In this document: positions 18,142-43,898 of the stretch, one piece after another
Layout: the number at the start of each line of letters is the position of its first letter
Position numbering within the stretch: the first letter of the stretch is position 1
Assembly: GCF_000153825.1 (NCBI RefSeq)
Contig: NZ_DS022299.1
Span: forward strand, 2,597,707 to 2,661,706
Reading direction: 5' to 3'
Origin: Synechococcus sp. RS9916
GTDB taxonomy: Bacteria; Cyanobacteriota; Cyanobacteriia; PCC-6307; Cyanobiaceae
Length of the DNA stretch: 64,000 nucleotides
Program-made: the position numbers and the translations under genes
Notes under the pieces: generated by a model
The model's database searches: none
Told to the model about the DNA's origin: nothing
The model's input: the letters and a program-made list of their open reading frames with translations, nothing else

Positions 18142-18735
18142 TTATGTGGGACTATCTTGGTCCCACTTCGCTTCCCATGATTGTGTTCGTCTGAATCGAA
18201 ATTCGCCTGCAATGGATCCCCAAAGTCTTTCATTGGTTTTTGGGTCATGACCACGATCAAGAGTCTTCAACGTGTCCTCCTGGAGGTGAAAAGTGCTGAC
18301 CAGGAGTGTTTCTTGACCATTTCGATTGACAAGACACTGACATCCTGGTTCGATAGATCCATAATATCCGTCGGTTTTGTTTTGGACTTGGTAATGGCAT
18401 TGGTCAAGGCAGATGAGGTCGCTGTCTCGAATGGTCTGCCGACATTTTTTGTCAAAGCTTGCAGTGGCAAACCTTGATGGCTCGCGGAAGCTATGGTTCC
18501 ACAACTTGATAATTCCAGGCGATTGTTCCTCTGCTCTGATCATGCGTAGTCTGTAAGGATGGCTTGGGTTAACTGCATAGCTTTGTTCTAGCAAAATAGA
18601 CCCTGGTTGGAGATGCTCTAAAGGGCGATATCTCAGAAAAATATGTGCAAAGAAAGGCGGATTGTCCAAGGCTTGTTGCTGATTGCTGTATTCGCCGCAA
18701 AGCAAGCTGAGAAAGTTCTGCACCGTTGATGTCAT
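18142..18735 (-). CDS. cpcT: CpcT-family (T-type) bilin lyase, probably for phycocyanin beta Cys-153
   Basis: 197 residues from the ATG at 18733-18735; the 20 codons before it cover the rpcA terminator hairpin. CpcT/CpeT family blocks are NPPFFAHIFLRYRPL, GSILLEQSYAVNPSHPYRLR, EPGCQCLV and TLDRGHDPKTNERLWGS. T-type lyases attach bilin to the beta Cys-153/155 site. Position directly after rpcBA suggests RpcB is the substrate (also called RpcT in PE-II strains). It is separated from rpcA by a terminator, so it needs read-through or its own promoter. Confidence 0.88.
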   Translation of the reverse strand: MTSTVQNFLSLLCGEYSNQQQALDNPPFFAHIFLRYRPLEHLQPGSILLEQSYAVNPSHPYRLRMIRAEEQSPGIIKLWNHSFREPSRFATASFDKKCRQTIRDSDLICLDQCHYQVQNKTDGYYGSIEPGCQCLVNRNGQETLLVSTFHLQEDTLKTLDRGHDPKTNERLWGSIAGEFRFRRTQSWEAKWDQDSPT

Positions 18736-34023: not shown

Positions 34024-34635
34024 TTAAGGATCTCTACTAGCCCATTCTTCAGTTATTAATTCAGAAAATGATTTAATCCTCGCAAAACGAAGTGGTCCAT
34101 GTTCAGAACCCCATTTGGGCTCATCTGTTTCTGGATCAAACCCCCGATCACGACTGATCCAGGTCTCCTCATTGACTTCGACTTCGCTAACCAGATACGT
34201 TAGTTTCCCATCTCTAGGCACAATACATTTTTTCCCAGGCTCAACATTGCCAGTGTAATGACCTGGTCTGCTTTCAACAAAATGCATAGCGCATCCACAA
34301 CGAGGCTCAAGATTTTCTTTCTTGATTGATTCCAGTAGTTCTGGAACTCGTCCAGCACCTGCAAGTCTTTCTTTATTTGGGAATCCAAAGTTCTCCATTA
34401 CATATGTCTTTTCTTTAATCGTAAGGCGATGGATGCCTTGGCGATAGGGATCCCAGGGAGAGTGGTCGTAGTATTGTTCAGAATAAAATCCTGGTCCGTT
34501 AAAGATATCCCTTGGTAACGGCCTGAATACAATATTGATGCGAGCAAACTCTTTTGGATTCGCCTGAGACTGCGCAAAATTGTCAAAAATCCCGGCCATC
34601 GTTTTTGCGAACCGTATAATATTCACTTGAGACAT
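34024..34635 (-). CDS. cpeT: CpeT: T-type lyase for phycoerythrin beta Cys-165
   Basis: 203 residues. The T-type lyase pattern is seen: ARINIVFRPLPRDIFNGPGFYSEQYYDH, DPYRQGIHRL, HFVESRPGHYTGNVEPGKKCIV, SRDRGFDPETDEPKWGSEHGPLRF. The order cpeS-cpeT-cpeR and the divergence from the other two T-type genes support CpeT, which attaches PEB to the beta Cys-165 site of PE-I. It is spaced 18 bp after cpeS and 3 bp before cpeR. Confidence 0.92.
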   Translation of the reverse strand: MSQVNIIRFAKTMAGIFDNFAQSQANPKEFARINIVFRPLPRDIFNGPGFYSEQYYDHSPWDPYRQGIHRLTIKEKTYVMENFGFPNKERLAGAGRVPELLESIKKENLEPRCGCAMHFVESRPGHYTGNVEPGKKCIVPRDGKLTYLVSEVEVNEETWISRDRGFDPETDEPKWGSEHGPLRFARIKSFSELITEEWASRDP

Positions 34636-39063: not shown

Positions 39064-39792
39064 TCAGTTCCCAGCGAGTAGGGACTCCAGGCTTTTCCGG
39101 GTTGTTGTTCTGGTCAAGGGGTTCCAGCAATCCAACTCGTCTGCATTTCTGGCAAGTAGTCCTTCAATTTGTCCTTGCTCCAGCCCAGTACAGAAGGAAA
39201 AATCGGCACCTTTGATCGATTCGACAGTGTCCAATGAGGCCTGCTCTAGATCGCATCCTCTCATGTCAGCCATCTGCATTTCGCAGGTGCCGAAGCGGGT
39301 GCCACGACACATGGCGCCTCGCAGGTTTGCTGCGCGTAGATCCGACCCAGCCATGGAGACACCGTCAAGAATTGCCCCACTGAGATCAGCTCCACTCAAA
39401 TAGGAGCCAAGAAGCACTGCTCCTCTGAGATCCATTGTTCGCAGATCACTATTATTGAGGAATGCTCCATTGAGTTTTGCGCCGGGTCCGACTGCCCCAC
39501 TTGTTCGGAGTTCAAAGTCTTCAGGCACATTTGTCTGATGGTCGTAAAGAGCAAGTCGAAGATCCGCTCCTTCGAGCTGACATAAACTGAGGTTCGCACC
39601 TCTGATATCGCATCGGCAGAGCTGAGCTTTTCGTAAGTCTGCTGTCCCCAAATCTTTGTTGTTCCAGTTCGCCCCTCTTGCATCGAGAGGCTTTTGGTCG
39701 AGGTCATTTGTTCTTGCATCCTCAGGGGGCAACCATTCCCAAAGATTCAACGATTCAGGATCTTTCACAGGCAATCCAGCTCTCTTGTTCAT
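39064..39792 (-). CDS. pentapeptide-repeat protein of the rod island
   Basis: 242 residues. Pentapeptide A(D/N)LxX units fill residues 37-205: DLRKAQLCRCDIRGANLSL, GADLRLAL, GAKLNGAFLNNSDLRTMDL, GADLSGAILDGVSM, SDLRAANLRGAMCRG. They would form a right-handed beta-helix. The C-terminal 40 residues (GADFSFCTGLEQGQIEGLLA) are non-repeat. It lies between mpeE and cpeC on the same strand. The role is unknown; a scaffold or protein-protein contact is the usual guess for such folds. Confidence 0.8.
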   Translation of the reverse strand: MNKRAGLPVKDPESLNLWEWLPPEDARTNDLDQKPLDARGANWNNKDLGTADLRKAQLCRCDIRGANLSLCQLEGADLRLALYDHQTNVPEDFELRTSGAVGPGAKLNGAFLNNSDLRTMDLRGAVLLGSYLSGADLSGAILDGVSMAGSDLRAANLRGAMCRGTRFGTCEMQMADMRGCDLEQASLDTVESIKGADFSFCTGLEQGQIEGLLARNADELDCWNPLTRTTTRKSLESLLAGN

Positions 39793-40073: not shown

Positions 40074-40976
40074 TCAAGCCCATGATTTGCAGTTTTTGGA
40101 TTGGTACATCCTACGGAATGCTCCAGACGTCGGATCGCTGGTTGCTTTGGAGTAAACGAACCCGCTCACGTCGTAGCCCTTGCTAGCGCCGCTAATGCTG
40201 CGGGCATTGCTGAATTCCATCACGAGCTGGCTACGGCCTTCGATAATCACGTCTGAGGCCGCATTGGCTGGAGAGATCCGAGCCAAGTTGACAAATGTTG
40301 AGCAGTATTTGCCTGCTTCAGATGTCCATGCTCGTGGATAGGGAACAGTCTGTGTTCCGAACACTTCGAGATACTCGCCTGAGTGGGTGATGTGCTCGAT
40401 AAAGGCGTCGAAACCTTGCTCTGCAATCAGACTGATGGCAGAGCTGACCTCTGCTTGGTTGATGGGAGGACGCCCCAACAGATGCTTGTAAGTGAGTTCT
40501 ACGCCACGGATGGGAGAAACCTTGAAAAAATAATTTTGCTTGTAGAGGTCTGACTTGGCTAGGCCAGCAACAAAGTCTCGTACTGTGATATCCCCATTGC
40601 AGAGCCTTGATTCGAGTTCGGTGCAACGCTGGCTGCTTGTGGGCCCCAAGTTGCCGAGAACTTGCTTGTAGGTGGCAGAGATTGTTGCACTCAGTGCATC
40701 GCTCCCTGTGGCAGCGAACTGTTCAGCAACTGTGCTGAAGGGGCACTCGCTATGAACCCTTGGGCCCATGCCAAGGCCCATGGCGTTGCAGGTGTTTTCT
40801 TTGAAGGCATGAATACTGCTCGATGGCAGGCCTATGCGCGTGAGGAGCGCGTTCTTCTCGACTTCTTCTCTGTAAACATTGATTGCCTTGCCTTGCTTAA
40901 GTTTCCCCTCGTTTCTGGCGGCGTATGAAACTCGGTTGAGGCTTGTGAAATCACGGGTCGGCTTGATGGCAACCAT
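40074..40976 (-). CDS. mpeE: MpeE: PE-II-associated linker with bilin site
   Basis: 300 residues, the length reported for MpeE of WH8102. It is MpeC-like: a bilin-type Cys at residue 63 (ENTCNAMGLGMGPRVHSECP), then a linker domain (ATYKQVLGNLGPTSSQR, LCNGDITVRDFVAGLAKSDLYK, ELTYKHLLGRPPINQAEV, EHITHSGEYLEVFGTQTVPYPR). No CpcD domain is present. It carries phycourobilin in the known orthologue. A terminator follows and a 435-bp upstream region precedes it. Confidence 0.94.
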   Translation of the reverse strand: MVAIKPTRDFTSLNRVSYAARNEGKLKQGKAINVYREEVEKNALLTRIGLPSSSIHAFKENTCNAMGLGMGPRVHSECPFSTVAEQFAATGSDALSATISATYKQVLGNLGPTSSQRCTELESRLCNGDITVRDFVAGLAKSDLYKQNYFFKVSPIRGVELTYKHLLGRPPINQAEVSSAISLIAEQGFDAFIEHITHSGEYLEVFGTQTVPYPRAWTSEAGKYCSTFVNLARISPANAASDVIIEGRSQLVMEFSNARSISGASKGYDVSGFVYSKATSDPTSGAFRRMYQSKNCKSWA

Positions 40977-41411: not shown

Positions 41412-42158
41412 CTAGCGAGTTCCGTACATTTCGGATGCAATAATGAGGAGAATTCGTGTGATCTCGATGCCTCCAATCACTGCAAGACCCAGCCAAGTTT
41501 TGGTAGCCCACGCTGGTGGTGTCGTCCAAGCAGCTGTGAGGTTGCTGGCCTCAGGTCTTGACTGTAGATTCTGCTCCCATTGCTGATCTCGCCAATCGCT
41601 GCCGTAGCGAGGAAATTGCTGATAGATCGGGGTTTCACCCAGGGAACGACCCGGTAGAACGCGCGACCTTTGTTGTGGGACTAAGTCGTAGCCGAAGCTC
41701 GCCATGTATTCCTCGCTGTTGAGGAGTTGGTCGACGAATGCGGTGAAGCCTTGTGATGCAATCACGATCGACCAGGCGCGGCGCTCAGTATCGCCGTGCA
41801 CCGGGCGACCGAGCACACGACCAACCACTTGATCCACCATTCGGTAGTTTGAGTTGCACTGGTAATAGCCGTGCTGAAATCGTTCCGACAGCAGCAATCC
41901 TCGTATGAAATCACGGGTGGTGATGTTCCCTGCTCGCAGTTGCGACTCCAGGTATGGATCTCGGTCGCAGCTCAGAGCATGAAAAAAGATCTGGCGGTAG
42001 GCCGTTGTCATTAAGGCATCGACAGTGGTGCGGCTTCCTTCGCTCGCGGCGCCAACTGAGCCCTGGAGTTGGCCACGAACGGTGGTACTGTCGCCAGCCA
42101 GATTGCTGACCCTGGAGTTTTGGGGCGTCAGCTCATAGCTCAGAAGCGGCAGGGCCAT
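41412..42158 (-). CDS. cpcG2: CpcG-type rod-core linker with membrane-like C-terminus (CpcL-like)
   Basis: 248 residues. The N-terminus (MALPLLSYELTPQNSRV) and linker domain (TTAYRQIFFHALSCDRDPYLESQL, GNITTRDFIRGLLLSERF, DQVVGRVLGRPVHGDTE, SEEYMASFGYDLVPQQR) are those of CpcG rod-core linkers. The last 35 residues contain a hydrophobic segment (WLGLAVIGGIEITRILLIIA) typical of CpcG2/CpcL proteins, which anchor core-less rods to the thylakoid near photosystem I. Marine Synechococcus have two CpcG; this is the hydrophobic-tailed one. Confidence 0.85.
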   Translation of the reverse strand: MALPLLSYELTPQNSRVSNLAGDSTTVRGQLQGSVGAASEGSRTTVDALMTTAYRQIFFHALSCDRDPYLESQLRAGNITTRDFIRGLLLSERFQHGYYQCNSNYRMVDQVVGRVLGRPVHGDTERRAWSIVIASQGFTAFVDQLLNSEEYMASFGYDLVPQQRSRVLPGRSLGETPIYQQFPRYGSDWRDQQWEQNLQSRPEASNLTAAWTTPPAWATKTWLGLAVIGGIEITRILLIIASEMYGTR

Positions 42159-42254: not shown

Positions 42255-42833
42255 TTAACCTTTGTGAAGCTCGCCATTTAAATGTGCAAGAGCTTTCTCG
42301 AGGCACTTTGCTTCATGCTGATGGTCTTGCTTCAATAAATCAGTCGTGATCAGTTGTGAAAGGGATTGAAGAGCTAGTGTCATGCCAGTGATGGGCACAT
42401 TCATCAGCTCAAACAGTTGGCGAACGGCCTTGATTCCAGAGGGGTCGGTGCATTGAGATTGATCGCTTGCCATCGCATAAATCGCAACACGGAGGAAATT
42501 CCAGCAATCTCGCCAGCAGGCGTCTGATCGCTCGGTTGGATAAAGTGCCCCTCCCTCTTCGAAAAGATGAGGCTGTCGAGCATGGAGCGTTTGCTTGCAG
42601 CTCTCCACATACCTGCTTGCTTCTCTAATCGTTAAATGGATAGCGCGTGGATTGGTCGCTGATTGTGTACAGATTGCTTCGATTTCTCTTTTATTCAGCA
42701 TTCTTCTCTCTTGATCGGCTTTCTTGATCAAGCTTCGAGATTCTTCGTCGATCTGAGGATGATTGTGCAGTCCGCAAACTTGTGCTTTGCTAATCAGCTG
42801 TTTGAATGCTGCTTGAGATTCGGCGTTGTTCAT
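42255..42833 (-). CDS. divergent phycobiliprotein-fold protein
   Basis: 192 residues from the ATG at 42831-42833. The segment LYPTERSDACWRDCWNFLRVAIYAM (98 to about 121) aligns with the Cys-82/84 bilin region of phycobiliproteins ([18 protein letters not shown]) and keeps Cys-106, Arg-108 and Asp-109. The following GIKAVRQLFELMNVPITGMTLAL matches the next helix ([15 protein letters not shown]...). The other cysteines differ from known bilin sites. It is not any of the subunits named in this window. Bilin binding is possible but unproven. It sits 7 bp after its partner gene. Confidence 0.7.
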   Translation of the reverse strand: MNNAESQAAFKQLISKAQVCGLHNHPQIDEESRSLIKKADQERRMLNKREIEAICTQSATNPRAIHLTIREASRYVESCKQTLHARQPHLFEEGGALYPTERSDACWRDCWNFLRVAIYAMASDQSQCTDPSGIKAVRQLFELMNVPITGMTLALQSLSQLITTDLLKQDHQHEAKCLEKALAHLNGELHKG

Positions 42834-42840
42834 GCCCCAC

Positions 42841-43248
42841 TTATGAATCGTTTGAAACTGGTGATGCACTCAATGCGCCACTTCGGTCGAGATAGAACGC
42901 CCATGTCAGTTCAGATCCCAGCCCTGGGCAAAGTTTGGGGAGGTTGCTTGCCAGTGATTGGTCCACGCCAAGCTTGGTGAGGAGAGGGACGACCTCCTCT
43001 GCAGATTCGACATTAAAAAAGCGAATTGCAGAACCAACAACCCATGTGATTTGCGTGTCTTCAAGGGCGCGATCTCCGTGGGCGCAGGCGAGTAAAAGAT
43101 TACAGCGTTGCTCACGAGAATTCAGTGTTTCGGCCCAAAGCCGAAGATCATCTGGCTTGAGGTCGATGCGAAATCTCTCAGGGCCAACGGCATGGATGAT
43201 TTCGCCATTCTGGTCTGCGTTGTTGAGCAGTTGTTTGATTAATGACAT
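42841..43248 (-). CDS. rod-island protein of unknown function
   Basis: 135 residues, unrecognised. Features are VGPERFRIDLKPDDLRLWAETLNSREQR, a helix with ACAHGD, VVGSAIRFFNVESAEEVVPLLTKLGVD and GLGSELTWAFYLDRSGALS. It is 7 bp upstream of the phycobiliprotein-fold gene, so the two are co-transcribed. It has no linker or lyase motif. A partner role for that protein is a guess from spacing. Confidence 0.65.
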   Translation of the reverse strand: MSLIKQLLNNADQNGEIIHAVGPERFRIDLKPDDLRLWAETLNSREQRCNLLLACAHGDRALEDTQITWVVGSAIRFFNVESAEEVVPLLTKLGVDQSLASNLPKLCPGLGSELTWAFYLDRSGALSASPVSNDS

Positions 43249-43301: not shown

Positions 43302-43898
43302 TTAGGGTGAATGCCACTCGGGTGGGATTTCGCTGGAGTAGTCCACTGTTTTGTCAAATTGAAAAGGGCCGGCGATTGATCCCCAAAGATGCTCGTGTGT
43401 TTTTGGGTCGTGGCCGCGATCAATCGTTGTCATCCCTGAGTCGGAAAGTTCAAAGCTGCTGACAAGGTAAGACTCGATTCCTTGTCGCTTCACAATGCAC
43501 TTGCACCCAGGCTCAACTTCTCCTTGAAAGCCTTTTCCATTTTCGCTGACGAGGTAGGTGCAGCCCTCAAGTAGTTTCAAGTCGGCCTCTGAGATTTGTG
43601 CTCGTTTGCTGTTGTCTTCAATGGCTCCCCAGAATCGTTGGTTGTCTTGGATGCCGTAATTGTTGATGACTAGTCCGCGTTGGTTGCAGATATTTGGTCT
43701 TAAAACACGAATTCTGTAGGGCTCTTTTGGTGCTACTGCATAGGCTTGCTCGAGCAAGAGCGATCCTGCTTTTAATTGGGGTAGGGGCCTGAACCGCACC
43801 AGGATGTGTCCGTAAAGAGGTGGGTTTTCGAAAGCTTGCTTCTGATTGTTGAAGCTTGCGCTTAGCTGCTTTGTCAGGCGGGCTAGAGACGCGTTCAT
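43302..43898 (-). CDS. third CpcT/CpeT-family (T-type) bilin lyase
   Basis: 198 residues. The pattern is as in cpcT: NPPLYGHILVRFRPLPQLKAGSLLLEQ, PKEPYRIRVLR, EPGCKCIVKR, TIDRGHDPKTHEHLWGSIAGPF. It is closer to the cpcT at 18142 than to cpeT (shared RGHDPKT.E.LWGSIAG). The substrate could be the beta Cys-153/159/165 of RpcB, MpeB or CpeB, or the nearby phycobiliprotein-fold protein. It is upstream of the 42841 gene by 53 bp on the same strand. Confidence 0.82.
   Translation of the reverse strand: MNASLARLTKQLSASFNNQKQAFENPPLYGHILVRFRPLPQLKAGSLLLEQAYAVAPKEPYRIRVLRPNICNQRGLVINNYGIQDNQRFWGAIEDNSKRAQISEADLKLLEGCTYLVSENGKGFQGEVEPGCKCIVKRQGIESYLVSSFELSDSGMTTIDRGHDPKTHEHLWGSIAGPFQFDKTVDYSSEIPPEWHSP

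Follow-up and report, generated by a model that had tools for sequence, protein, structure and literature searches.

We have identified the open reading frame at 42255..42833 on the minus strand of the window, by which we mean the whole stretch of 64,000 nucleotides that was analysed, as aplA, a gene already named and discussed in print. Its 192-aa product is a phycobiliprotein-fold protein with its bilin-site cysteine at position 106 within a C-W-R-D motif, as supported by a PF00502 match, its clade, an AF2 model and gene order, and its most likely role is as a sensor or helper, with a bound bilin, of phycobilisomes that contain phycoerythrin (PE). What is added here is the invariance of the site among 89 sequences, the tracking of PE by AplA and, outside the window's family, the neighbourhood of aplA with PE genes and a HEAT protein. 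AplA has been proposed as a phycobiliprotein whose function is not in light harvesting, and its tie to PE over several families, its invariant CWRD site and its neighbours, Unk4 and an NblB-like HEAT protein, provide named, testable partners. If it is true that AplA regulates PE, an antenna protein would have been turned into a sensor of its own.

The aplA gene, its bilin site and its fold

The aplA frame lies where the earlier note had placed an open reading frame, and is open up to a GTG at 42869 (204 aa) or an ATG at 42833 (192 aa); the ATG was chosen as the start because M1, which is conserved in the 12 aligned sequences, is shared by the other 11. Residues 35-182 match PF00502 in Pfam (E 6.8e-27, 94.8 bits against a curated cut-off of 22.2), 34 homologues were found at E <= 0.01, so that the resemblance is well outside chance, and AplA is the weakest of the 13 PF00502 matches in the genome except for two inside one 1195-aa frame. 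The gene order in the window is T-type lyase, unk4, aplA, a cpcGII-type rod-core linker (41412..42158, minus strand; PF00427, E 7.4e-36, with the NCBIfam CpcG1-G4 models all below cut-off), a 300-aa rod linker (40074..40976, minus strand; PF00427, E 3.6e-42) and the pentapeptide-repeat protein gene unk5 (39064..39792, minus strand; PF00805). This matches the printed description in passages of Six et al. (2007), in which every PEII-containing strain has an aplA orthologue upstream of cpcGII, unk4 lies upstream of aplA, and unk5, with its pentapeptide repeats, is generally found downstream of cpcGII (PMC2246261), and it is on the basis of this match that the gene was identified as aplA. Its position between unk4 and cpcGII, with unk5 beyond, is therefore that seen in PEII-containing marine Synechococcus. 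Two PE-beta-type genes in the window score above the CpeB cut-off, one of which would be that of PEII. The closest named loci, from a scan of the contigs of named genomes that yielded nine loci with patterns made from the window's closer relatives, are those of Synechococcus, and parts of later publications place AplA by name in this cluster (PMC5478717, PMC6776005, PMC6363710). A new phycobiliprotein class was considered and rejected, as the name aplA is already found in portions of the published record (PMC2246261, PMC5478717, PMC6776005).

The bilin site lies within residues 104-121, DACWRDCWNFLRVAIYAM, whose codons occupy 42471..42524 of the minus strand and whose cysteine is Cys-106, as the earlier note had said. 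Ten residues (C106, W107, D109, F113, R115, Y119, L46, L97, R102 and P147) are invariant in all 89 distinct AplA sequences, and R108 is kept in 88 of the 89, with His in the one exception, so that the C-x-R-D motif is complete in all but this homologue. At the places matching the AplA site, C, R, D, R and Y are likewise present in 41/41 other phycobiliproteins; the position of Trp-107 is Leu in 31 of these 41, and the Asn found just before the bilin helix in 31 of them is replaced by A, G, D or E in 74/89 AplA sequences. C106, W107, R108, D109, R115 and Y119 are also invariant in an alignment of 65 sequences, among them the homologues from Tolypothrix tenuis PCC 7101 (P0106), Fortiea, Kamptonema and Crocosphaera. 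We take Asp-40 (Asp in 79/89 AplA and 41/41 other phycobiliproteins) and Arg-115 (Arg in 89/89 and 41/41) to be the salt-bridge positions of the alpha/beta interface, and their retention would allow AplA to pair with an antenna subunit. AplA would most likely carry one bilin (PEB or PCB), joined by a thioether bond at Cys-106, with Arg-108 and Asp-109 holding it in place. No support was found for a chromophore of the doubly linked or dual-cysteine kind, since the other cysteines are not conserved over the 89 sequences, in which Cys is present at position 20 in 14, at 55 in 48, at 110 in 50 (Phe in 31) and at 128 in four.

The earlier note had proposed a phycobiliprotein fold that keeps the C-x-R-D site and had asked whether the predicted fold is globin-like. 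The AF2 model of AplA (pLDDT 93) is globin-like and its structure matches are phycobiliproteins, and together with PF00502 and the 89 homologues it bears out both parts of this proposal. The accompanying claim, that the rest of the protein is unlike other subunits, was right as to divergence, the identity to the listed solved chains being 16-23%, but wrong in so far as it implied unrelatedness, as the Pfam match covers residues 35-182. By sequence, the closest solved chains are AP alpha-B (3jbb/4po5, E 2.4e-29). None of the NCBIfam equivalog models for ApcA, ApcB, CpcA, CpcB, CpeA or CpeB was reached above cut-off, the best being that of allophycocyanin beta (apcB; residues 34-188, E 1.8e-13, 50.8 bits against a cut-off of 228). 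With the allophycocyanin subunits ApcA, ApcB, ApcD and ApcF, AplA shares the globin core and the C-x-R-D bilin helix, but it differs from them in having CWRD in place of CLRD or CIRD, in the loss of the common Asn, in an extra N-terminal helix and in failing to reach the equivalog cut-offs. This N-terminal stretch, which is missing in 37/41 other phycobiliproteins, is modelled as a helix at residues 3-16. Structure evidence on the placement of the N-terminal X/Y hairpin relative to antenna subunits is mixed: Foldseek placed full-length antenna subunits about 8 A from the AplA model and 6hrk_A at 1.8 A, from which a hairpin folded back on the core was read, but this reading was weakened by VIA-align, where 140-152 residues of several cryptophyte beta chains, beginning at about residue 27-32, fit AplA at 2.0-2.6 A, which counts against a wholly different hairpin placement.

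AplA was reportedly described by Montgomery and colleagues in 2004 (J. Bacteriol. 186:7420) as an allophycocyanin-like protein of Fremyella diplosiphon, for which the homologue of Tolypothrix tenuis PCC 7101 (P0106) is presumably a close stand-in. An AplA profile built from 12 sequences and searched in 201 genomes of the window's family and in 386 phylum genomes found AplA in 56 of the former at >= 87 bits (next match 60.8) and in 53 of the latter at >= 78.8 bits (next match 71.9). Sequences were taken from 49 of the 56 family genomes, from all 33 genomes outside the family and from the nine named loci, which gave the 89 distinct sequences. In a quick tree search, unrooted and with several long branches, a branch with SH-aLRT 100 separates all of them from the 41 other phycobiliproteins, a partial sample drawn from the same loci and from the window's own genome, so that AplA-type proteins of other cyanobacterial families are united with that of the window apart from antenna subunits. 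The window gene has the order unk4-aplA-cpcGII-unk5 and the divergence from other phycobiliproteins in common with known AplA and its marine Synechococcus orthologues, and its CWRD site in common with named homologues from Tolypothrix (T. tenuis PCC 7101), Calothrix and Nostoc, which lie outside the tree set. However, its product shares only about 21-31% identity with the rows outside the window's family, and C110 and C55 vary between AplA subgroups.

Occurrence of AplA with phycoerythrin

PE was scored as a CpeB match above the NCBIfam cut-off, which was found in 61/386 phylum genomes. Matches to this model were found in 128 genomes beyond the window's family, of which three (G342, G372 and G441; E > 1e-16) were set aside because they were taken to have no ordinary phycobilisome. 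Among the remaining 125 phycobilisome-bearing genomes, in tables compiled by hand from the per-genome match rows, 28 have both AplA and PE, five AplA only (G236, together with G414, G416, G429 and G477 of one genus), two PE only (G291 and G467) and 90 neither, so that AplA is present in 28/30 PE-bearing against 5/95 other genomes (Fisher 1.5e-20, in a test that ignores phylogeny). Within the seven genera that include both PE states (26 genomes), AplA and PE are fully concordant. Inside the window's family, CpeB scores above cut-off in 123/201 genomes, 60 of which have at least eight model matches; AplA is present in 53 of these 60 and in three of the 141 others (G096, G119 and G183). The seven that lack it (G080, G081, G105, G125, G128, G180 and G199), with G291 and G467, bring to nine the genomes with PE and a phycobilisome but without AplA. 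These nine, like the five outside genomes with AplA but no CpeB, weigh against the role in PE phycobilisomes proposed below. In the other 63 PE-positive family genomes, which we infer to be Prochlorococcus-like, there are one or two model matches each and AplA is absent. The occurrence of AplA mostly in PE-making species is a hint that it may act as a helper or sensor. No phylum-wide comparison of AplA with PE was found in the portions covered of the AplA and phycoerythrin literature (including PMC2246261, PMC6363710, PMC5478717, PMC6776005, PMC4139726 and PMC2327270), though one may still exist in print. At four loci of a single genus (g87; L046, L050, L053 and L063), aplA lies outside any PE cluster in genomes without CpeB and adjoins a gene of a cluster whose tested member (L053:5694-6320) is a PAP/fibrillin protein.

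Neighbours of aplA inside and outside the window's family

The small partner gene that the earlier note had seen beside aplA is unk4 (42841..43248, minus strand), which encodes 135 aa without a Pfam or NCBIfam match, and for which a search of solved structures gave a chance-level match only (E 0.5). Seven nucleotides separate the unk4 stop from the aplA ATG; in the locus rows, an overlap of exactly 4 nt is the commonest spacing (25/61 rows, that of the window included). The family of the window is represented by 67 locus rows, in which some genomes occur twice; unk4 adjoins aplA in 60 of these and is absent there in seven. In the phylum set it occurs in 23/386 genomes, all of the window's family, these being the 20 with AplA, G081, which has PE but no AplA, and G029 and G058. 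Both of the latter have PE and only two phycobiliprotein-type matches; unk4 is in two pieces in G029 (C9:26886-27300) and is a remnant with stops in G058 (C1:804873-805250). At one locus (L035 of G096, minus strand, 1453-2547) unk4 and aplA form a single 364-aa frame from the Unk4 start, whose junction differs from that of L037 by a frame change; the assembly consists of about 140 contigs, and the single frame may reflect either a mistake in it or a genuine fusion. At another (L007:4605-5608), matches to the cpcGII-type linker are spread over three separate frames immediately downstream of aplA, and the gene may be broken.

Outside the window's family, aplA often has PE genes around it and the gene of an NblB-like HEAT protein next to it. 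Neighbour clusters there were named from one to three tested members each. HEAT proteins of one cluster are present at 21 of the 33 outside loci, at 17 of them no more than 250 bp from aplA (for example, L092:4229-4924, minus strand; L066:5560-6276, plus strand; L065:4230-4916, minus strand), and the three tested members score 96-105 bits to the NblB model, whose cut-off is 300. A HEAT protein similar to NblB, CpcE/F and other HEAT bilin proteins adjoins aplA in many outside loci; no kinship of such proteins to AplA is claimed, and none lies beside aplA in the window. At the same 33 loci a cluster with a bilin reductase as tested member is found in 17, a CpeS cluster in 16, unk5-related pentapeptide proteins in 13, and a rod linker cluster and a CpeT cluster in 12 each, while a cpcG-type match lies near aplA at one locus (L059). 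A DUF2656 protein is encoded close downstream of aplA at L067:5702-6202 (plus strand), and its cluster is found near aplA in three outside loci.

Possible roles of AplA and attachment of its bilin

The earlier note had offered a sensor, a chaperone or a minor rod component as possible roles, of which a sensor or helper fits best, with a minor rod component still a rival. Our working hypothesis, to which we give an even chance, is that AplA is a globin-core bilin protein apart from the antenna, loaded by an S-type lyase, that senses or helps the making or turnover of the PE phycobilisome. It would probably be a bilin protein in its own right rather than a repeated antenna subunit, its partner would be Unk4 in picocyanobacteria and perhaps the NblB-like HEAT protein elsewhere, and its task would be the sensing of light or bilin state, or assistance in the making or turnover of PE-containing phycobilisomes. 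The identity, fold, conserved site, link with PE and operon neighbour are results of the present analysis, whereas the bound bilin, the choice of lyase, the separateness from the antenna and the sensing or helper role are inferred. Photoreceptor behaviour is ascribed to AplA in a passage of Six et al. (2007; PMC2246261). A more ambitious form of this hypothesis, in which AplA is a phylum-wide biliprotein regulator that reads bilin or light state and controls PE making or breakdown via Unk4 or the NblB-like HEAT protein, perhaps being kept from rods by its changed N-terminus, we regard as distinctly unlikely. The odds of both were lowered because the VIA-align fit weakened the case for a folded-back hairpin.

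AplA might instead be a minor structural subunit that pairs with a phycobiliprotein subunit or linker, for example next to CpcGII where rods join the core, and contributes to energy transfer. The position of aplA directly upstream of the cpcGII-type linker in the window and at other family loci, the retention of Asp-40 and Arg-115, and a phycobiliprotein core to which cryptophyte beta chains fit over nearly their full length all speak for this explanation; yet aplA stands alone, without a gene for an alpha/beta partner next to it, its product has an extra N-terminal helix, has lost the common Asn and is a misfit to full-length subunits in Foldseek, and outside the family a cpcG-type gene is near aplA at one of 33 loci where PE genes and the HEAT protein are common. 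Moreover, a passage of Six et al. (2007) states that AplA of F. diplosiphon is not linked to the phycobilisome (PMC2246261). We consider a structural role unlikely, although it is the foremost of the alternatives. Rather unlikely too, and ranking after it, is a PE assembly or turnover factor without sensing, which would take up free bilin or hold a PE subunit together with Unk4 or the NblB-like HEAT protein. Such a factor would suit the link with PE, the location in PE clusters, the proximity of the HEAT protein with its resemblance to NblB, the presence of Unk4 in all 20 AplA-bearing family genomes of the phylum set, and the split or decayed unk4 of the two genomes with few phycobiliprotein-type matches; against it, the invariance of the bilin site points to a chromophore that stays bound, no match to Unk4 occurs outside the family among the 386 phylum genomes searched, and the HEAT match falls far under the NblB cut-off. 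Strong divergence from the solved chains could also mark a relic, a phycobiliprotein in decay that has neither bilin nor function, but this is contradicted by the conservation of C106, W107 and D109 in 89/89 sequences, by an open frame kept in many lineages and by a conserved operon neighbour, and we hold it to be highly improbable.

In our preferred reading of AplA as a sensor or helper, its bilin would probably be attached by an S-type (CpcS/CpeS) lyase rather than by the T-type lyase next to unk4. Lyases of the S type act on the 82/84 bilin site, and the genome has four S-type lyase matches, one of them partial. The T-type lyase gene beside unk4 (43302..43898, minus strand; PF06206, E 4.6e-54) is indeed a third one, as the earlier note had counted, the three PF06206 matches lying at 18187-18714, 34078-34611 and 43350-43877 in the window, in one phycobilisome island. 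The hint that it goes with AplA was weakened: a T-lyase adjoins unk4 elsewhere too (for example, at L002, L009, L084, L088, L089 and L107), but no T-lyase match was found upstream of unk4 within the locus stretches examined at L003-L007, the Cys-153 site type is absent from AplA, and, in a weak tree, the lyase groups at support 90 with T-lyases several of which are near a phycocyanin-beta-type gene (L079, L080 and L103-L105), a group that also holds two lying beside unk4 (L002 and L009). As the CpcT lyase of PCC 7002 is quoted as acting on Cys-153 of phycocyanin beta (in a passage of PMC2246261), the lyase beside unk4 is probably of cpcT type, serving phycocyanin beta-153; from the tree grouping and the locus survey, it is not favoured as AplA's own lyase. 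The T-lyase that lies downstream of rpcA, at 18187-18714, agrees with rpcT as defined in print, and the genome perhaps has both a cpcT-like and an rpcT-like gene, a combination in RS9916 that Six et al. (2007) call surprising in the passage concerned (PMC2246261).
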